NCBI RefSeq assembly: GCF_024300645.1
Contig: NZ_CP101291.1
Span: 2,170,001 to 2,234,000, forward strand
Reading direction: 5' to 3'
DNA: 64,000 nucleotides
Source: Alteromonas sp. LMIT006
Lineage (GTDB): Bacteria; Pseudomonadota; Gammaproteobacteria; Enterobacterales; Alteromonadaceae
Positions 17,301 to 61,594 of this stretch are shown here, piece by piece. The position numbers were made by a program, and so were the translations under genes. Position 1 is the stretch's first letter. Each line of letters opens with the position of its first letter. The notes under the pieces were generated by a model. The model was not told the origin of the DNA, did not search any database, and saw only the letters and a list, made by a program, of their open reading frames with translations.

Positions 17301-18693
17301 TCAGATCAGCATCGTTTAAATTCACAAACTGTGAGAAACGACCATTCACACCTAAGCTAACTGAGTACGGGTCTGTGACTTCGTATGACTCAATGTCACC
17401 TGTGACCGGGTGGAACACCGTCATCGCAAAGCGGTAGAACATGCGATCCATGCCAGTACCTGTGTAAGACCAGATACCTGTCATGGGATCTTCAGTCATC
17501 GGATGCGATGCTTGTAGACGTTTTTCAGCGTTATAAACTTGTAACGTAACAGATAGTGCGGTCGGCGCCCATAGGTTGACGGTAATACCATCATCACCAT
17601 AGATAAGACCTAACGTTGCTTCGTCCGCATCGGCTTCACCAGCGGTATAGATGCTGTCAAGCGCATTAGCAATTTGTACGCCAGTCGCTGCCACTAAGGC
17701 ACCATCGACATCATAACCACCAAGCACGGCTTGACCTTTTAAGACCGCTTTCGCGTCATCCACTGTCCAAGGGCCAGAAAACGCACTTGCACCAGTCACT
17801 TCTGGGTCAATTGCACGCTGCGCATCAGTCAAATCCACGGCCGTTAAATCAACCGCTGTGCCGTTAAGACCAGATTCTAACGTCGCCTCGATACCTGCAG
17901 ATAATGAGTAGTGTAGTTTGACTGACTCAACCGCATCTGGTGCATCCCAAACGATCGTCGTCGCATCAATCCAGTGTGCGGCCATGCCGTCAATCTGAAC
18001 TGGACGCTCGCCCAAAGAAATAATTGGGAATTCAAAAACCGTTGGCTCACCAGTAAGCGTGAAGTTCATGCGCGCAAAACGGGCTTCATCTTCGGTCGGT
18101 GCTGGCGCTTCAGGATCGTCCAATAACTTAGCTTTAAAGTCTGCACCGCCCATTTCTTTACCCGCATCGTCAGTACCGATGTGGATAATGAAGTTATGGC
18201 AGCTCCCAAAACCCTCTTTTAAGTTCAAGATCCAGTATGCACCATAGTTAGGATCAACCCCGTTGTGCACTAAACCATTGTCCCAAGATGCGGCAAGCGA
18301 ACTTGATTCAAGGGCATCACACGCATCGTTGTTCCAAGTATGCAAACGCCAACCTTCATATGACGCATCGTTAGTGGTATTCGGCGCACCGGCTGCTGCG
18401 CGGTTATAATACAACACCGCTTGACGGTCTGTTGGAAAAACAGATGGATCCGGCAATGATGTATTCACACCAACCACACAGTTTTCATTGGCCGCGTCAG
18501 GTACTGTTGGTGCAGCACACTGAATCGGAGGAGGAGGCACACAAGCAGTACCTTGCGCATTGGGTACATTTGGCGCAGAACAAGCTAATAGTTGCACGCC
18601 AGATTCAATATCTGAACCGCCACCACAGCCTGCAAGGCCTAAAGTACCAAGCACGAGTACTACTGCACCCATTTTTCGGAATGTTTTAAACAT
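14323..18693 (-). CDS. pulA: Pullulanase-type alpha-1,6-glucosidase lipoprotein with three C-terminal repeats
   Basis: 1456 residues. Lipobox LAGC gives lipidated Cys23, followed by GGGSD, and predicts a cell-surface or periplasmic lipoprotein. An N-terminal region with paired cysteines (CAAPTVPDA-type repeats) is followed by a carbohydrate-binding region and a CBM48-like domain (DGITVNLWAPTALSV). The GH13 barrel carries DVVYNHT (about 654), FRFDLMG with the nucleophile Asp (about 726), YGEGW with the acid/base Glu (about 756) and SKHDGN (about 856). After an enzyme-specific C-terminal domain come three tandem domains (about 1124, 1233, 1346), each starting with a VYLRGSMNGWGT-like motif, probably starch-binding beta sandwiches. 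It debranches pullulan or amylopectin outside the cytoplasm, feeding the adjacent receptor. Confidence 0.95.
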   Translation of the reverse strand: MFKTFRKMGAVVLVLGTLGLAGCGGGSDIESGVQLLACSAPNVPNAQGTACVPPPPIQCAAPTVPDAANENCVVGVNTSLPDPSVFPTDRQAVLYYNRAAAGAPNTTNDASYEGWRLHTWNNDACDALESSSLAASWDNGLVHNGVDPNYGAYWILNLKEGFGSCHNFIIHIGTDDAGKEMGGADFKAKLLDDPEAPAPTEDEARFARMNFTLTGEPTVFEFPIISLGERPVQIDGMAAHWIDATTIVWDAPDAVESVKLHYSLSAGIEATLESGLNGTAVDLTAVDLTDAQRAIDPEVTGASAFSGPWTVDDAKAVLKGQAVLGGYDVDGALVAATGVQIANALDSIYTAGEADADEATLGLIYGDDGITVNLWAPTALSVTLQVYNAEKRLQASHPMTEDPMTGIWSYTGTGMDRMFYRFAMTVFHPVTGDIESYEVTDPYSVSLGVNGRFSQFVNLNDADLKPEGWDDYAAPTIENPEDAVIYEGHIRDFSALDASTPEAVRGKFLAFAQEDTAPVNHLKALADAGVTHFHMLPANDIATIDERSDRTVDLNSTVFELCLLNRRLDICEDTSIRDMTLQQVLESYDPFLDPAAAQELMNQVRNYDQFNWGYDPHHFNAPEGSYATDPDGVARILEMRTMIKALHEMGLRTVLDVVYNHTNASGLSEKSVLDKVVPGYYHRYDITSGGILRQSCCDDTEDRSRMMAKFMQDSLLMWTTQYKFDSFRFDLMGLHSEETVLALREAVQAVDPDNYFYGEGWTMADRGATQATQMNLAGSGIGTFNDRMREDIRQGQFFARNSDDNGAKLDKGDRIKSGMAGTLSDFILEDQNGVASNTSALGGYAADPADIINYVSKHDGNTLWDQLQYVLPNDLTIDQRVRAHNMALGLPLMSQGIPFLQFGGDLLRSKSMDRNTYDAGDWFNKTDFTKTTNNWNVGLPLAQDNQGAWDAIGEFVYGSDRVATAEHIAFAGDVFQELLRIRSSSPLFRLTTGEDIKARVGFHNIGRSQQPGLIAMSIDDGTDFADLDENVDAIMVVVNSNYEEASIRVNTATGFTLHDIQAASVDEVVRGASFAEGTDDDEGNGLFTVPAQTIAVFVKEQGTEQGMGLSAFATAGAPDIVPYGSTTVYLRGSMNGWGTATPFSYAGDGIYTTTYDLTGGVEEQFKVAEADWANPNLGAPDGESDVVTEGSAFALAPSNNNLKFTADVDATYEFVFDAADLDNPTLLVRKDNPYFGTAVYVRGGMNGWGTGNEMNYQGGKTFSAVFNHDGNDIEFKVASEDWSTVDHGATEDTDAARNFTVGSLLQANTSGGPNFRLLGAAADELRVTLDVSDPAMPMIGVFQNQFFGATEVFLRGGMNGWGTANAFAFDNDSGTYTVDIEISAGAYEFKVASDDWATVNLGAPSGERDVVIDTPVGLIQNSQDNFLFDFPANATYKFTVGPPLTGVPSLTVTQTP

Positions 18694-18711
18694 AATCTTA
18701 TTACTCCGATA

Positions 18712-21693
18712 TTATAGTGAATAGGTCATGCCTAAGAAGTACTGAGTACCAAAATACTGAATCGTACCGGTCAATGACTCATCGATAAAGTACGTTTTAG
18801 TTGGTGCGTCAGTCACGTTATTCGCTTGGAATAACACGCTTAGGTTTTCGTTAATTTCATAAGATGCCTGCAAGTCCACAACGATTTCTTTATCGAAGTT
18901 TACGACTTGTTCATTCACGGCAACTTGTTGTGACACAAATGGGTCGCGATAGCGAGTACTTATACGCGCTTCAAACCCGTCGTGCTCCCAAAAACCAGTT
19001 ACCGTTGCAACTTGCTTGGAAAGCCCTTGTAAGTCGCTCGTATATACACCATTACCTGTGGTACGTGTGATCTCAGATTCGGTATACGAGTAACTTGCGT
19101 TGACCCCTAAACCAGCCCAAAGTCCCGGTAAATTTGAGTAGATCTCGGTGTAGGCAATTTCAATACCGCGAATGTAACCACCCTCAGCATTATTGACTGC
19201 CGTTGTGTATGTTCCGTTTTCAGTTGGAACAATCACAGTAATTGGGTCGCCTGATGCATCCAATACTGGCTCATCATCTTCGTCCAATACCGTGACCGAC
19301 ACCTCTGTTGGCACATCAAATCCATTTGCAGCAAAATCATACGGGGTGATCCCAAACTCATCGATGAAGGATTTGATGTTTTTGTAGAATAACGCTACGA
19401 CAAAGGCACCATCAGTTTCATCAAAGTAACGCTCATAAGACAAGTCGAACTGATCCGCATAGAACGGACGCAAGAACGGACTGTTGGTACTCGAGCCGTT
19501 GATCTCTGCCGTTGGTTTGGTCAGTACGATGTCGCCAGTGTCTTCATCAATGGATGCAAACACATCCGATACACGCACATTTGCATTGGCAAATAAACGA
19601 TTGATTGGCGGACGCCCCATGACCTTGGCAGCAGCAAAACGAATCTGTTCATTGTCTGAAATCTTGAAGTTCAAGTTTAATGAGGGCAAGTAATCACGAT
19701 ACGAATCGCCTATAATATCAAACGCAAACCAATCGTTGATTAGGCCTGCTTCGTCAGTCAGATATTGCGCACCATTTTCAGGATTACCCCGTTTATCAAT
19801 AATTCTGCCTAATTCGTCTTCAATATTTTCTGACACATCCCGTAAGACAGTGGAAGATTGCTTAGTATCCACCATGCGAACACCGATATTGCCCGTTACT
19901 GGTAAATCGCCAATTTCTGCGTCGATGTTCGCCATGATGTAAGCCGAAGTGACCTCTTCAAATACAGAGCCTGACTCTGTCACTGACCATGCCGTATTTG
20001 GACCTTGACCAGGAGTAGGACTATTGATTACACCAGGATGAGAGGTCCCCCACGTTTGCACTGGCTGTGGAATACCTGATGGGAACCATGCATTAAGCGC
20101 TTTATCCAAGTCAATCGATAGGTAACTAGGGAAGTAGCTAAACTCACCTTTCCAATCCACCACTTCCACCATATCAGAGGTCAAACGCAGTGGCGGTTGA
20201 TTGCGTGGGAAGCCCGAATCTGAACCGTACTCAAACACAGAACGGTCTGAAGAATACTCGCGGTCAGAGTAACGCGCACCAAACTCAATAGAAGAGATGT
20301 AATCACTATCCACTAAGTATTTGAAGTCCAAACGGAGCGCTTCTATCGCATCTTCGTTTTGATAAGGATAAATACCATATTTACTGGCCATCACCCGGTT
20401 GATGTCGCTGAAGGCATCAAACTGACTGAAACCAATATCTGGTAAATCTAAACCGTTATTTTGATAGCTGATTTGGACATTTTCATCAAACACAGCCGTG
20501 TCAGCGTTCGCATCGACTGCCACATTGGACCATAACAAACCATTGCGGAAATCAGACGATGCAGATGAATAGGATGCGTCAAAACTGACTGACCAATCAT
20601 TATTAATATCCCACTGAGCATTGACACCATAACTTTTCACTTCATCAAAATCTTGGTTGTCATCGTTTACTAACTCAACACGTGTCGCACTAGATGAGTT
20701 ACGTGTAAACGTACCACCGGTCACAAACCCGTTGGGGTTTACAGTTAGATTAGCTAATGAGGCTTGATTCGCAGCGAGCTTCACGCGGAAACCACGTGCA
20801 AATTGTTCTGAATCAAAGCGCGACAAGAAAAAATCGGATTTCAAGCGGAAATTATCCACTGGCTGCCATTCTATGGCTGCCATGTAACCGTTTCGGGTTT
20901 CTTCGCCGCCCTTATGCTGCATCTCGAAACCTTCGGAAACAGTGACTTCTTGGCCTTCATAAATGCGAGTGCCACCTGGTGCTAGGCCAATATACTGCGT
21001 CGCGACCGATGGTTGAAACAAACGGGCATAACCAAGGGCTAGACCTAAGGTATCATCAAGGTATTTGCCTTGATAAGAAAAACTCAAACGACTACCAAAA
21101 TCAGAGTTATCAGACACTTCGTCCGAACGGTCGTTGGTCATGCCACGCACATTCAGACCAAATGTATGAGTTTGGTCATTGCTCAGCGGACTCGCCGTAA
21201 CAAGCTCAACCGTACCGGCAACACCGCCTTCAATCAAAGACGCCTTTGGCGATTTGTATACCGCAGCAGAACTGATCAATTCCGAAGGATATTGGTCGAA
21301 TTCGATTGACCGGTCACCTGAGGTAGAGACCTGTTCTCTTCCATTAAGGGTTGAAAAAACGAAATCGCCAGATAACCCACGGATGTTGATTTCCGCAGCC
21401 TGTCCACCGGTACGTACCGCAGATATACCTGGAAGACGCGTTAATGCATCCGCCATTGATACATCAGGTAGACCACCGAGATCGTCAGCTGATAATTGTT
21501 CTGATACCGTGTCACCAAAACGTTTTTGATTGAGTGATTTAATTAAGCTCGTAGAAAATCCACGGACTTCAATTACTTCTACTTCCTCTTTTTTTGGTGC
21601 TTCCTCTGCGTCCTGAGCAAGTAACGGTGTTGCCATTACTAACCCACTGGCAGCTAGTGCAGCGGTTATCATACTGGGTCTAAATTTATTCAT
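18712..21693 (-). CDS. TonB-dependent receptor, probable maltodextrin/alpha-glucan uptake
   Basis: 993 residues. The signal peptide ends at PLLA-Q (about 26), followed by a TonB box-like EVEVIEVRG. The plug domain has LPGISAVRTGGQAAEINIRG and IEGGVAGTVEL, and a 22-strand barrel is expected, ending in YFLGMTYSL. Length and plug motifs (SMADALTRLPGI) resemble the large carbohydrate receptors common in Alteromonadales and Xanthomonads. It is the first gene of an operon with the pullulanase 18 bases downstream, so the cargo is probably branched malto-oligosaccharides, an inference from context. A 16-base near-palindrome centred on CG lies upstream (21802-21817). Confidence 0.9.
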   Translation of the reverse strand: MNKFRPSMITAALAASGLVMATPLLAQDAEEAPKKEEVEVIEVRGFSTSLIKSLNQKRFGDTVSEQLSADDLGGLPDVSMADALTRLPGISAVRTGGQAAEINIRGLSGDFVFSTLNGREQVSTSGDRSIEFDQYPSELISSAAVYKSPKASLIEGGVAGTVELVTASPLSNDQTHTFGLNVRGMTNDRSDEVSDNSDFGSRLSFSYQGKYLDDTLGLALGYARLFQPSVATQYIGLAPGGTRIYEGQEVTVSEGFEMQHKGGEETRNGYMAAIEWQPVDNFRLKSDFFLSRFDSEQFARGFRVKLAANQASLANLTVNPNGFVTGGTFTRNSSSATRVELVNDDNQDFDEVKSYGVNAQWDINNDWSVSFDASYSSASSDFRNGLLWSNVAVDANADTAVFDENVQISYQNNGLDLPDIGFSQFDAFSDINRVMASKYGIYPYQNEDAIEALRLDFKYLVDSDYISSIEFGARYSDREYSSDRSVFEYGSDSGFPRNQPPLRLTSDMVEVVDWKGEFSYFPSYLSIDLDKALNAWFPSGIPQPVQTWGTSHPGVINSPTPGQGPNTAWSVTESGSVFEEVTSAYIMANIDAEIGDLPVTGNIGVRMVDTKQSSTVLRDVSENIEDELGRIIDKRGNPENGAQYLTDEAGLINDWFAFDIIGDSYRDYLPSLNLNFKISDNEQIRFAAAKVMGRPPINRLFANANVRVSDVFASIDEDTGDIVLTKPTAEINGSSTNSPFLRPFYADQFDLSYERYFDETDGAFVVALFYKNIKSFIDEFGITPYDFAANGFDVPTEVSVTVLDEDDEPVLDASGDPITVIVPTENGTYTTAVNNAEGGYIRGIEIAYTEIYSNLPGLWAGLGVNASYSYTESEITRTTGNGVYTSDLQGLSKQVATVTGFWEHDGFEARISTRYRDPFVSQQVAVNEQVVNFDKEIVVDLQASYEINENLSVLFQANNVTDAPTKTYFIDESLTGTIQYFGTQYFLGMTYSL

Positions 21694-21801
21694 TAGTGTG
21701 TCCCATTCCCATTGTAAAAATATGAGTTACGAGATTTAGCACGAAACTCACGCTGTTTATCACAGTTCAAGATAAAAAAAATAGGACACAACTACAACTT
21801 T

Positions 21802-21817
21802 ATACATACGTATTCAT
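21802..21817. promoter_or_regulatory. Possible LacI-family operator
   Basis: ATACATACGTATTCAT is 12/16 symmetric about a central CG, the general form of LacI-type operators. It lies in the 241-base gap between the receptor gene and the small double-glycine ORF and could serve either. No regulator gene is in the window. Confidence 0.3.
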
Positions 21818-21918
21818 AACATTTATGTAACAACAATGAACGTGTAAACCGATATTTTGGTCAGCAGACATCTGTATTTTGTTATTTCATAATCGCTTTG
21901 CAATCAATGCACTTTATT

Positions 21919-21925
21919 AAGAGGA
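21919..21925 (+). promoter_or_regulatory. Ribosome-binding site of the small double-glycine ORF
   Basis: AAGAGGA ends 9 bases before ATG 21935, a good Shine-Dalgarno sequence in otherwise AT-rich intergenic DNA. It supports real translation of the 53-codon ORF. Confidence 0.6.
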
Positions 21926-21934
21926 AAAAATATC

Positions 21935-22096
21935 ATGCAACGACAACAAATGGTGGTTATTAAGCCGTCTGAATGGAAAAAGGTAAATGGTGGCGTATAC
22001 AAGGATGCATTTATCCCGGATGATTACATGAAACCGTATGGTCCATATTATGAAAAGCCAAATCGACATGATTACTATGATCACATTGTAAAATAG
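21935..22096 (+). CDS. Putative double-glycine leader peptide (bacteriocin/RiPP-like precursor)
   Basis: A 53-residue ORF with a good Shine-Dalgarno site and its own terminator. The first 20 residues end in IKPSEWKKVNGG. Counted back from the cut site this has Gly-1, Gly-2, Val-4, Trp-7, Glu-8 and Ile-12, matching the double-glycine leader pattern (hydrophobic at -12, -7 and -4, Glu at -8). The 33-residue core (VYKDAFIPDDYMKPYGPYYE and on) has seven Tyr, several Asp and Pro, and no Cys. Such leaders are cut and exported by C39-peptidase ABC transporters, but no such transporter or modifying enzyme is in the window. It could instead be an unprocessed small protein. Codon content is unremarkable. 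Confidence 0.55.
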   Translation: MQRQQMVVIKPSEWKKVNGGVYKDAFIPDDYMKPYGPYYEKPNRHDYYDHIVK

Positions 22097-22099
22097 CAG

Positions 22100-22133
22100 A
22101 AAAAAGCCCCTTACTCAAACGAGTAAGGGGCTT
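22100..22133. terminator. Bidirectional terminator between small peptide ORF and sucD
   Basis: A perfect 13-bp stem AAGCCCCTTACTC/GAGTAAGGGGCTT with loop AAAC. The minus strand, carrying the suc operon, continues into T6; the plus strand continues into a weaker T-rich stretch. Confidence 0.9.
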
Positions 22134-22156
22134 GTATTTCATTAAGCTTGGTTAAA

Positions 22157-23029
22157 TTACCAACCAGTGATTTCGCGCAGACCTTTGCCGATATCAGCAA
22201 GAGAGCGAACGGTCTTTACGCCAGCCGCTTCTAGTGCTGCGAACTTGTCATCCGCAGTCCCTTTACCACCTGCGATAATAGCGCCCGCGTGCCCCATACG
22301 CTTACCTGCTGGAGCCGTTACACCTGCAATATAAGAAACAACAGGCTTAGTCACGTTTGCTTTGATGTACTCAGCCGCTTCTTCTTCTGCTGTACCACCG
22401 ATTTCACCGATCATCACAATCGCTTCAGTACCTGGGTCGTTTTGGAACATTTCAAGTACGTCAATGAAGTTAGAACCAGGGATTGGGTCACCACCAATAC
22501 CTACACACGTAGATTGGCCAAAACCTTCATCAGTCGTTTGCTTAACAGCTTCGTAAGTCAACGTACCAGAACGTGAAACGATACCTACTTTACCTGGCTT
22601 GTGGATGTGACCAGGCATGATACCAATCTTACACTCACCCGGAGTGATAACACCTGGGCAGTTTGGACCGATCATACGCACGCCTTTTTGCGTGATGTAT
22701 TCTTTGACATACAACATGTCAATCGTAGGAATACCTTCAGTAATACATACGATTAGCTCGATACCTGCATCAGCGGCTTCGATGATTGAATCTTTACAGA
22801 AAGGTGCTGGTACGTAGATAACTGTTGCGGTAGCGCCAGTCGCTGCTACTGCATCTGCTACGGTATCAAATACAGGAAGACCTAGGTGCGTAGTACCGCC
22901 TTTACCAGGAGTAACACCGCCCACCATTTGTGTGCCATACTCAATCGCCTGCTCTGAGTGGAACGTACCTTGACCACCAGTGAAGCCCTGACAGATGACT
23001 TTAGTATCTTTATTAATTAAAACTGACAT
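22157..23029 (-). CDS. sucD: Succinyl-CoA synthetase (ADP-forming) alpha subunit
   Basis: 290 residues, the usual length. It binds CoA and carries the phosphohistidine that passes phosphate between succinyl-CoA and ADP in the TCA cycle. The N-terminal Rossmann domain shows [19 protein letters not shown] and [23 protein letters not shown] lies mid-protein, and the active-site His is in [18 protein letters not shown] near residue 246. The start overlaps the sucC stop by one base (TAATG-like junction), so the two subunits are coupled. It is the last gene of sucABCD, followed by a strong terminator. Confidence 0.98.
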
Positions 23030-24195
23030 TATTTGCCCTCCGCCGCTGCAACTACTTTCTGAGCTGCATCTGTAAGAGATTCAGCTGCAATAATATCCAA
23101 ATCAGAAGAAGCAAGTACTTCACGACCTAAATCGGCATTCGTACCTTCTAAACGCACAACCACAGGTACATTTACGCCAACTTCTTTCACCGCACCGATG
23201 ATACCTTCAGCGATCATGTCACAACGTACGATACCACCGAAAATGTTAACCAATACTGCTTTAACATTGCTGTCAGATAGGATGATTTTGAACGCTTCCG
23301 CAACACGCTCTTTGGTCGCGCCGCCACCCACATCTAGGAAGTTTGCTGGGCTACCGCCGTGCAAGTTAACGATGTCCATCGTGCCCATTGCCAGACCAGC
23401 ACCGTTCACCATACAGCCTACATTGCCATCTAGGGCAACGTAGTTAAGCTCAAAAGAAGCTGCATGAGCTTCACGCTCGTCTTCTTGAGAAGGATCGTTC
23501 ATTTCTGCGACTTTCTTTTGACGATAAAGCGCATTTGAATCCACACCTAATTTGGCGTCTAGACAGTGTAAATCACCGTCTTCTTTAATCACTAGCGGGT
23601 TAATTTCGATCAATGCCAAATCTAAATCTTCAAACATTTTCGCAAGACCCATGAAAATGTTTGTGAACTGGCGAACTTGTACACCTTGCAGGCCAAGCTT
23701 GAATGCAATTTGACGAGCTTGGTAAGGCTGAGGACCCACTAATGGATCGATTTCAGCTTTAAGGATTTTCTCAGGTGTTTCTTCTGCAACGGTTTCAATT
23801 TCAACACCACCTTCGGTAGATGCCATGAAAACAATTTTACGAGAAGCGCGGTCAACCACTGCACCTAAGTACAACTCTTGAGCGATGTCTGTGCATGATT
23901 CAACTAAGATACGGCTAACTGGCTGGCCATTTTCATCTGTTTGATACGTTACTAGGTTTTTACCTAACCAGTTCTCTGCAAACGCTTTGATGTCTGCTTT
24001 GTCTTTAACAAGCTTTACACCGCCTGCTTTGCCACGTCCACCTGCGTGAACTTGACATTTAACGACCCACATGTCGCCGCCAATTTTATCTGCCGCTGCA
24101 ACTGCCTCTTCTGGCGTAGCTGCTGCGAATCCTTCAGAAACAGGTAAGCCATATTCTCTGAATAATTGCTTGCCTTGATATTCATGCAAATTCAT
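23029..24195 (-). CDS. sucC: Succinyl-CoA synthetase beta subunit
   Basis: 388 residues, full length. The N-terminal ATP-grasp domain starts [19 protein letters not shown] and includes [17 protein letters not shown]. The C-terminal CoA-ligase domain has [18 protein letters not shown] and [10 protein letters not shown]. It pairs with SucD to make succinate and nucleotide triphosphate from succinyl-CoA. It is separated from sucB by 149 bases containing a perfect 9-bp hairpin, so the CD half of the operon may be transcribed or processed separately. Confidence 0.98.
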
Positions 24196-24288
24196 GTTTT
24201 CTATCCGCTTTTTTGATTAAAAATCAGACGTTAATACGTCCATTCGTTGCTAAAAAGAATGTTTCATGGGTATAAAACACTCAAAACA

Positions 24289-61508: not shown

Positions 61509-61594
61509 TGGTGCGGAAAGCGGGACTTGAACCCGCACGAGCATAGCTCACCACCCCCTCAAGATGGCGTGTCTACCAATTCCACCACTTCCGC
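61509..61594 (-). tRNA. tRNA-Leu (anticodon GAG)
   Basis: Eighty-six bases including encoded CCA. The acceptor stem pairs GCGGAAG with TTTCCGC, the D-arm region reads GGTGGAATTGGTAGACACG, the anticodon loop is CTTGAGG with GAG at 61560-61558, a long variable arm follows, and the T-arm has GGTTCAAGTCCC. It is closely similar to E. coli leuU. It lies 17 bases after secG, as in relatives, so is probably co-transcribed. Confidence 0.97.

Follow-up and report, generated by a model that had tools for sequence, protein, structure and literature searches.

The window analysed here is a stretch of 64,000 nucleotides from Alteromonas sp. LMIT006 (genome G000). A short open reading frame (ORF) in it lies between a TonB-dependent receptor-like gene and a convergent sucD-like gene, and its translation starts with a double-glycine (GG) leader. 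The place of this ORF beside sucD is referred to below as the slot. The features of the locus, with both gene names taken from the original prediction, are the following.

18712 to 21693, minus strand: TonB-dependent receptor-like gene, a neighbour in six of nine slots, judged to lie outside the system
21862 to 21893, plus strand: putative promoter CAGCAGA-N19-CATAAT, with an equivalent arrangement in seven of nine slots, degenerate by eye in two
21919 to 21925, plus strand: Shine-Dalgarno sequence AAGAGGA, recognised in the sequence; a purine-rich site also lies 5' of the other slot ORFs
21935 to 22096, plus strand: ORF of 53 codons encoding the precursor peptide of the GG slot linked to sucD, supported by its translation, a G004 homologue under purifying selection, and syntenic GG ORFs in nine of nine genus genomes with a sucD match
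21935 to 21994, plus strand: 20-residue double-glycine leader with predicted C39 cleavage after Gly-20, supported by the leader matrix and by E-x6-GG, as in exporter-adjacent leaders
21995 to 22093, plus strand: 33-residue core, the predicted mature peptide, with its first 18 residues conserved in G004 and its last 15 variable
22104 to 22133, no strand assigned: 13-bp stem-loop recognised in the sequence, likely a bidirectional terminator common to the ORF and the convergent sucD
22157 to 23029, minus strand: sucD-like gene (ORF, 290 aa) marking the slot

The ORF encodes MQRQQMVVIKPSEWKKVNGG (leader) followed by VYKDAFIPDDYMKPYGPYYEKPNRHDYYDHIVK (33-residue core). The original prediction had described an ORF with a Shine-Dalgarno sequence and a terminator, a leader with I-12, E-8, W-7, V-4, G-2, and G-1, and a Tyr/Asp/Pro-rich, Cys-free core, and all these elements are visible in the sequence and its translation: the Shine-Dalgarno sequence lies 10 nt 5' of the start codon, the stem-loop follows the stop codon and is itself followed by T-rich sequence, and the named leader residues are located as claimed. 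A stem-loop with flanking A/T runs was also seen by eye at the equivalent place in the other slots.

No Pfam or NCBIfam model matches the window peptide or its G004 homologue at E-values up to 10, and no Rfam family overlaps the ORF, the sole Rfam match in the window being a tRNA at 61512–61594. Shortness and the absence of Pfam/NCBIfam matches are what one would expect of a chance ORF; this explanation is hardly credible in view of synonymous-biased changes, nine syntenic ORFs, and ribosome-binding sites.

The genus set comprised ten same-genus genomes, G000 included. A single-sequence search of these genomes yielded one further true homologue, at the syntenic position in G004 (E 4.6e-23), with 69% identity over residues 1–52 and cores 68% identical overall. 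G004 keeps both the ORF and its GG/E-8/hydrophobic pattern, contrary to the lack of conservation that the original prediction had named as refuting. Between the two genes there are 16 synonymous and 19 non-synonymous substitutions (dS 0.96, dN 0.16), with seven synonymous and one non-synonymous in core residues 21–38, and 3.5 synonymous and 12.5 non-synonymous in the last 15 core residues. Small as these counts are, this is the substitution pattern of a translated, selected peptide, and, judged on sequence evidence, the ORF is a genuine gene under selection with a GG leader.

The other eight genus genomes gave chance-level matches only; nothing further that was convincing came from the single-peptide search of 196 family and 394 order genomes, and no plasmid relatives of the slot peptide were found. 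Weak matches in ORFs of about 1000 residues, from eight of the ten genus genomes (E 0.013–0.09) and two family genomes, were taken as chance, since they lie inside one long reading frame, oxidoreductase-like by eye in G000. The order-level match in G071 is antisense within a 307-residue ORF and thus was also ascribed to chance. For three of the five other weak order-level matches the ORFs were read, and no convincing GG peptide was seen.

The slot beside sucD across the genus

The sucD protein search detected this gene in nine of the ten genus genomes, with none in G008 (83% complete), and in each of the nine a small GG-leader ORF is convergent with sucD, at a stop-to-stop distance of 57–111 nt. 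A loose leader pattern picked up eight of these ORFs, and the one in G009 was recognised by eye; inner start codons were chosen for the slot ORFs of G004 and G005. Outside the genus, 54 genomes have a sucD match, and the loci of 27 were examined: no ORF in them reaches 5.6 in the leader matrix described below (slot peptides, 9.0–18.7), and the loose pattern matched one locus, in G055, with a 64-residue ORF in the gap. No candidate immunity gene was seen by eye among the ORFs in the 900 nt upstream of the sucD end in the nine slots; distant immunity is possible.

The slots also share features upstream of the ORF. CAGCAGA-N18/19-YATAMT occurs 63–93 nt 5' of the start codon in seven of nine slots, with degenerate forms by eye in G005 and G006. 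This motif was derived post hoc from the slot sequences themselves, and its conservation is partly plain relatedness of the flanks. The pattern has a single occurrence in G000, at the slot. A genome-wide regulon is unsupported, with 16 matches in the ten genomes, seven of them the source slots, versus 13 in the reversed control. A promoter common to the slot and the exporter is unsupported as well, CAGCAGA being absent in the stretches of up to 450 nt upstream of all 11 fusion-protein genes; upstream of the other three GG peptides of G000 it is also absent, one CAGCAGC being seen. Separately, an identical CAGCAGA...TATAAT was observed 5' of a 356-residue ORF in G002 and G006 (regions L124 1419–1531 and L128 1501–1613), and in a short piece of G005.

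The only invariant positions in the alignment of the nine slot peptides are the two glycines, and the cores range from near-identical to unrelated. Those of G002 and G007 differ at two residues, and those of G005 and G006 are clearly homologous; weak similarity links the cores of G001, G003, G005, G006, G002/G007, and G009 (400 shuffles and 36 pairs, uncorrected; highest z, 3.7), and the G000/G004 core is unrelated to the others (z ≤ 1.5). At the DNA level, the window and G003 are 82.7% identical over 18601–21873 and 89.2% over 22097–24250, and the unaligned gap between extends from within the promoter element through the stop codon of the ORF, whereas G004 aligns across the slot without a break, at 87.2%. 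The neighbours lack such a break (transporter, 96.9% for G003 and 97.4% for G004). With one genome per species, the core change relative to G003 could be either a swap or divergence beyond recognition. Core turnover suggests a fast-evolving secreted signal, surface peptide, or weapon.

The original prediction had considered a tie between the peptide and the TonB-dependent receptor, described there as an alpha-glucan receptor. We rejected it, as three of nine slots (G001, G002, and G007) are without the receptor, and the receptor is alike in G003 and G004 (94.1 and 94.8% identical to that of the window, respectively), though only G004 has the peptide core.

The slot is best explained as a fixed genus address, at which the leader would be kept and the core would be free to diverge or be swapped. 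The leader type is known; the arrangement is new. In the literature, we found no report of a sucD-linked GG peptide or of Glaciecola GG peptides. A survey of GG leaders in Gram-negatives (Dirix 2004) is said to exist, and Glaciecola has reportedly been linked with diatom blooms.

The leader and the C39 exporter

The rule for GG leaders asks for a short leader ending in Gly-Gly or Gly-Ala/Ser, with hydrophobic residues at -4, -7, and -12 and an acidic residue at -8; the window peptide, with a Gly-Gly end, agrees with it at every position. For an independent assessment, a leader matrix was built from the leaders of nine GG peptides adjoining C39 exporters, none of them from the slot, and its scores were compared with those of a background of 1373 other ORFs of 30–120 aa from the window and the 27 non-genus sucD loci. 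The window peptide scores 14.0, the best background ORF scores 5.5, and none of 2000 shuffles of the window peptide reaches its score. The nine slot leaders score 9.0–18.7, always ending at GG and above all 1373 background ORFs, and shuffled slot peptides reach their own scores 0–10 times per 2000. The background consists mostly of spurious frames, so the matrix tests the pattern, not expression. Across the genus, the leader pattern named in the original prediction holds in part: GG is invariant, but Glu at -8 is present in four of nine slot leaders (with Asp in two, Gln in one, and Lys in two; G009 aligned on its GG), and the core is unconserved.

Six other slot peptides were scanned with curated models, the G007 peptide, near-identical to that of G002, being left out. 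With the bacteriocin leader model TIGR01847 (cut-off 15.7 bits), the peptide of G006 passes at 16.8 bits, and those of G003 and G005 score under the cut-off (14.6 and 13.2 bits), the former narrowly. A profile of the nine peptides, run against 295 family genomes, recovered all nine and, from other genera, a further 15 weak matches (E 0.007–0.048), 14 of which are small GG-leader ORFs; matches L150, L152, L157, L158, and L160 adjoin, by eye, fusion-protein- and C39-transporter-like genes. Recovery of GG-leader ORFs elsewhere means that the slot profile carries a true family leader signal.

These data bear on the possibility of a small cytoplasmic protein with a GG motif unrelated to export. Although the window peptide has no leader-family match and the exporter is distant, the GG is invariant in nine slot peptides with unrelated downstream parts, and both the matrix result and the cross-detection of transporter-adjoining GG peptides by the profile speak against such a protein, which we consider very improbable.

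Two matches of the same profile in another genus of the family are Pro-rich GG peptides encoded beside RimK-like ATP-grasp proteins (L154, 1489–1695 and 1746–2693, plus strand; L155, 1369–1596 and 328–1260, minus strand). They have a common C-terminal EDGG motif, and one ATP-grasp partner is weakly MvdD-like; these pairs are possibly of the graspetide type. The window ORF might likewise encode a RiPP precursor, in which case an enzyme encoded elsewhere would modify side chains of Tyr, Asp, or Pro before export. A leader followed by a variable core is the RiPP plan, and the two ATP-grasp-linked peptides fit it, but no candidate modifying enzyme lies beside the slot in the slot neighbourhoods of the genomes read, and we regard this explanation as unlikely.

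Consistent with the original description of an orphan GG precursor with no exporter nearby, the single PF03412 (C39) match in G000, 125.4 bits vs. cut-off 22, is at G000:C1:1341051, about 850 kb from the ORF at 2191935; the genome-wide check proposed for an exporter thus finds one C39 peptidase ABC transporter. Such a transporter is encoded in all ten genus genomes, in 11 copies, and the Cys, His, and Asp catalytic motifs are present in all 11. The domain was found in 43 of 59 family genomes, and since the exporter is so common in the family, its presence alone says little.

In G000, the exporter cassette (G000:C1:1338789–1343114) encodes the fusion protein, a 57-residue GG peptide (MKELTFEEVKEVNGG...), a CPBP-type (Rce1-like) membrane protease, and the transporter; the peptide is 96.5% identical to its counterpart in G003 and 86.0% to that in G004. 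In G000, G003, and G004 the exporter has its own local GG peptide, which counts against the slot peptide as its substrate. Within the DNA examined, four exporter copies (G000, G001, G003, and G005) are neighboured by both folD-like and tig-like genes (names by eye), and four by one of the two; the G007 and G008 copies sit on short contigs (about 4 kb), and copy G009b is at another site, among several clustered GG peptides. Next to the longer transporter type (G001, G002, G005–G008, and G009a) no convincing GG peptide was seen within the limited flanks; for G007 and G008, on their 4-kb contigs, a substrate close by is possible. In G002 and G006, the fusion-protein gene is preceded by a 52-residue ORF with a weak pattern ending in NGS, which was not counted as a substrate.

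Other observations concern the exporter loci themselves. A single 1119-residue ORF of G002 (L084, 6952–10311, plus strand) spans both fusion protein and C39 transporter. In G009, the second exporter cassette (L092, 6186–15447) includes five GG-leader peptides, of which one (FGNCPTDTPVNDDLSDFF...) is hydrophilic. Paired membrane histidine kinases are encoded next to a C39 exporter in L017 (2146–3834 and 3770–5539, minus strand) and L091 (47–4091, minus strand); in G009 a response regulator of the LuxR type is present as well. The kinase pair of G000 and this regulator were assigned with Pfam.

We suggest that the 20-residue leader would be recognised by the only C39 peptidase ABC transporter of the genome, together with its membrane fusion protein, and that the precursor would be cut after Gly-20 during export, releasing a hydrophilic peptide of 33 residues. 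Export in trans by the C39 transporter is the best supported step of this scheme, given the leader statistics, the synteny, and the intact exporter.

Possible roles of the released peptide

The window core contains 3% Gly and has a GRAVY of -1.30 and, if unmodified, a calculated mass of about 4142, with 24% of its residues in AVILMFWGC (our own residue set, not that of PMC10233263); the nine slot cores are Cys-free, with 0–3% Gly and GRAVY from -0.37 to -1.36. The original prediction had proposed a genome-wide search for further copies of the leader, and three other GG-leader peptides were found. A degenerate leader pattern matched 12 times in G000 (11 times in the reversed control), and four of these matches start small GG-leader ORFs: the window ORF, the exporter-linked peptide, and ORFs at 627021 and 863266, both on the minus strand, with no exporter beside either. 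Their cores have 27 and 21% Gly and GRAVY of 0.72 and 0.62, respectively, and the exporter-linked peptide has 10% Gly and GRAVY of 0.02. By composition, the slot cores are cargo of a different kind from the other GG peptides of the genome, under the same leader.

The two additional orphans were inspected separately. The one near 627021 (MQYLTQSEIEEVNGG; L093, 4886–5137, minus strand) has a Gly-rich, microcin-like core and no exporter within the 10 kb examined; the one near 863266 (MKTLNTNEILAVNGG; L094, 5095–5322, minus strand) lies between rplI-like and dnaB-like genes and shows weak similarity to Bacteriocin_IIc and MccV, under the cut-off.

The main rival to our interpretation is a narrow-spectrum, microcin-like bacteriocin directed against sister species, using the same transporter, with immunity located elsewhere or unneeded. 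It fits the GG leader and the core turnover, close relatives carrying unrelated cores at a fixed slot; at least two of the three other GG peptides of the genome are Gly-rich and microcin-like, and Bacteroides is known to have GG-leader bacteriocins that lack an immunity protein (PMC10233263). Nevertheless, no immunity gene is seen in any of the nine slots, the core is hydrophilic and Gly-poor, retention in all nine genomes exceeds the expectation for an accessory weapon, and the first 18 core residues are under strong purifying selection between G000 and G004. We therefore take the bacteriocin to be possible, and favour an extracellular self-made peptide, acting as a signal or as a surface/matrix component and unlike the pore-forming class II microcins of the classical kind. 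On the whole, trans export by the C39 transporter, cleavage at GG, and an extracellular signal or surface/matrix role of a peptide whose core changes within a fixed slot make up the probable explanation.

A self-made signal could have a receptor, and the exporter-linked histidine kinases were considered for this role. These kinases are about 90% identical between G000 and G003 and over 99% between G000 and G004, with the corresponding cores unrelated and 68% alike, respectively. Hence their identities do not follow the core swap, a receptor covarying with the core is unsupported, and among the kinases compared, which were only these, no receptor is in sight.

More tentatively, the slot could be a genus-wide self-recognition locus, at which the allele of the secreted peptide is swapped as one unit, promoter element and stop codon included, and the leader and a dedicated trans C39 exporter are kept; sister species would then send out different peptides via one and the same exporter. 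If true, such a locus would be the Gram-negative equivalent of pherotype (pheromone-type) switching.

Gram-negative GG-exported peptides have mostly been sought beside exporters and as microcins. The gene described here is far from its likely exporter and has no visible immunity gene, and is kept in every genus genome that could be examined, its core being replaced at a fixed address. Slot synteny can reveal GG peptides that sequence similarity misses, and the slot is a simple test case for the role of C39 exporters without a local substrate.

Comparison with known systems

Gram-positive GG pheromones of the ComC/Blp type combine a GG leader with a short secreted core that varies between relatives. 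The slot peptides resemble them in the leader and in a short, predicted secreted core varying between relatives, and the G006 peptide is weakly ComC-like (E 0.025; 14.8 bits, under the cut-off of 20.4). They differ in that the slot has no linked receptor kinase, and the exporter-adjacent kinases do not covary with the core.

The exporter cassette of G000 itself shares with the slot an NGG-type leader, the host, and likely the exporter. However, its peptide is encoded between the fusion protein, the protease, and the transporter, and is 86–96% conserved, whereas the slot core is 68% identical or unrelated in the same comparisons.

Class II microcins (MccV, Enterobacteriaceae) are similar in having a GG leader and, in the genome, a C39 transporter with a membrane fusion protein (PMC10233263). 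According to the same source, their leaders are 15–18 residues long (20 here); their mature peptides are Gly-rich and hydrophobic (61.2% on average in PMC10233263). The window core is neither Gly-rich nor hydrophobic, and the slots have no adjacent exporter and, by eye in all nine, no adjacent immunity gene.

A precedent outside bacteriocins comes from Synechococcus elongatus, where the small GG peptides EbfG1–4 serve biofilm formation via the C39 transporter PteB (PMC4997328, PMC9981879). EbfG1 (TTYNPPSYPYPSYPK) is a Tyr/Pro-rich GG-exported peptide with a non-bacteriocin role (PMC4997328), and the core of EbfG2 is Tyr/Pro-rich as well. Both systems involve small GG peptides and a C39 exporter; as described in these sources, the cyanobacterial genes form a four-gene biofilm operon in another phylum, whereas here a single gene occupies a fixed slot, with its core replaced between sister species.
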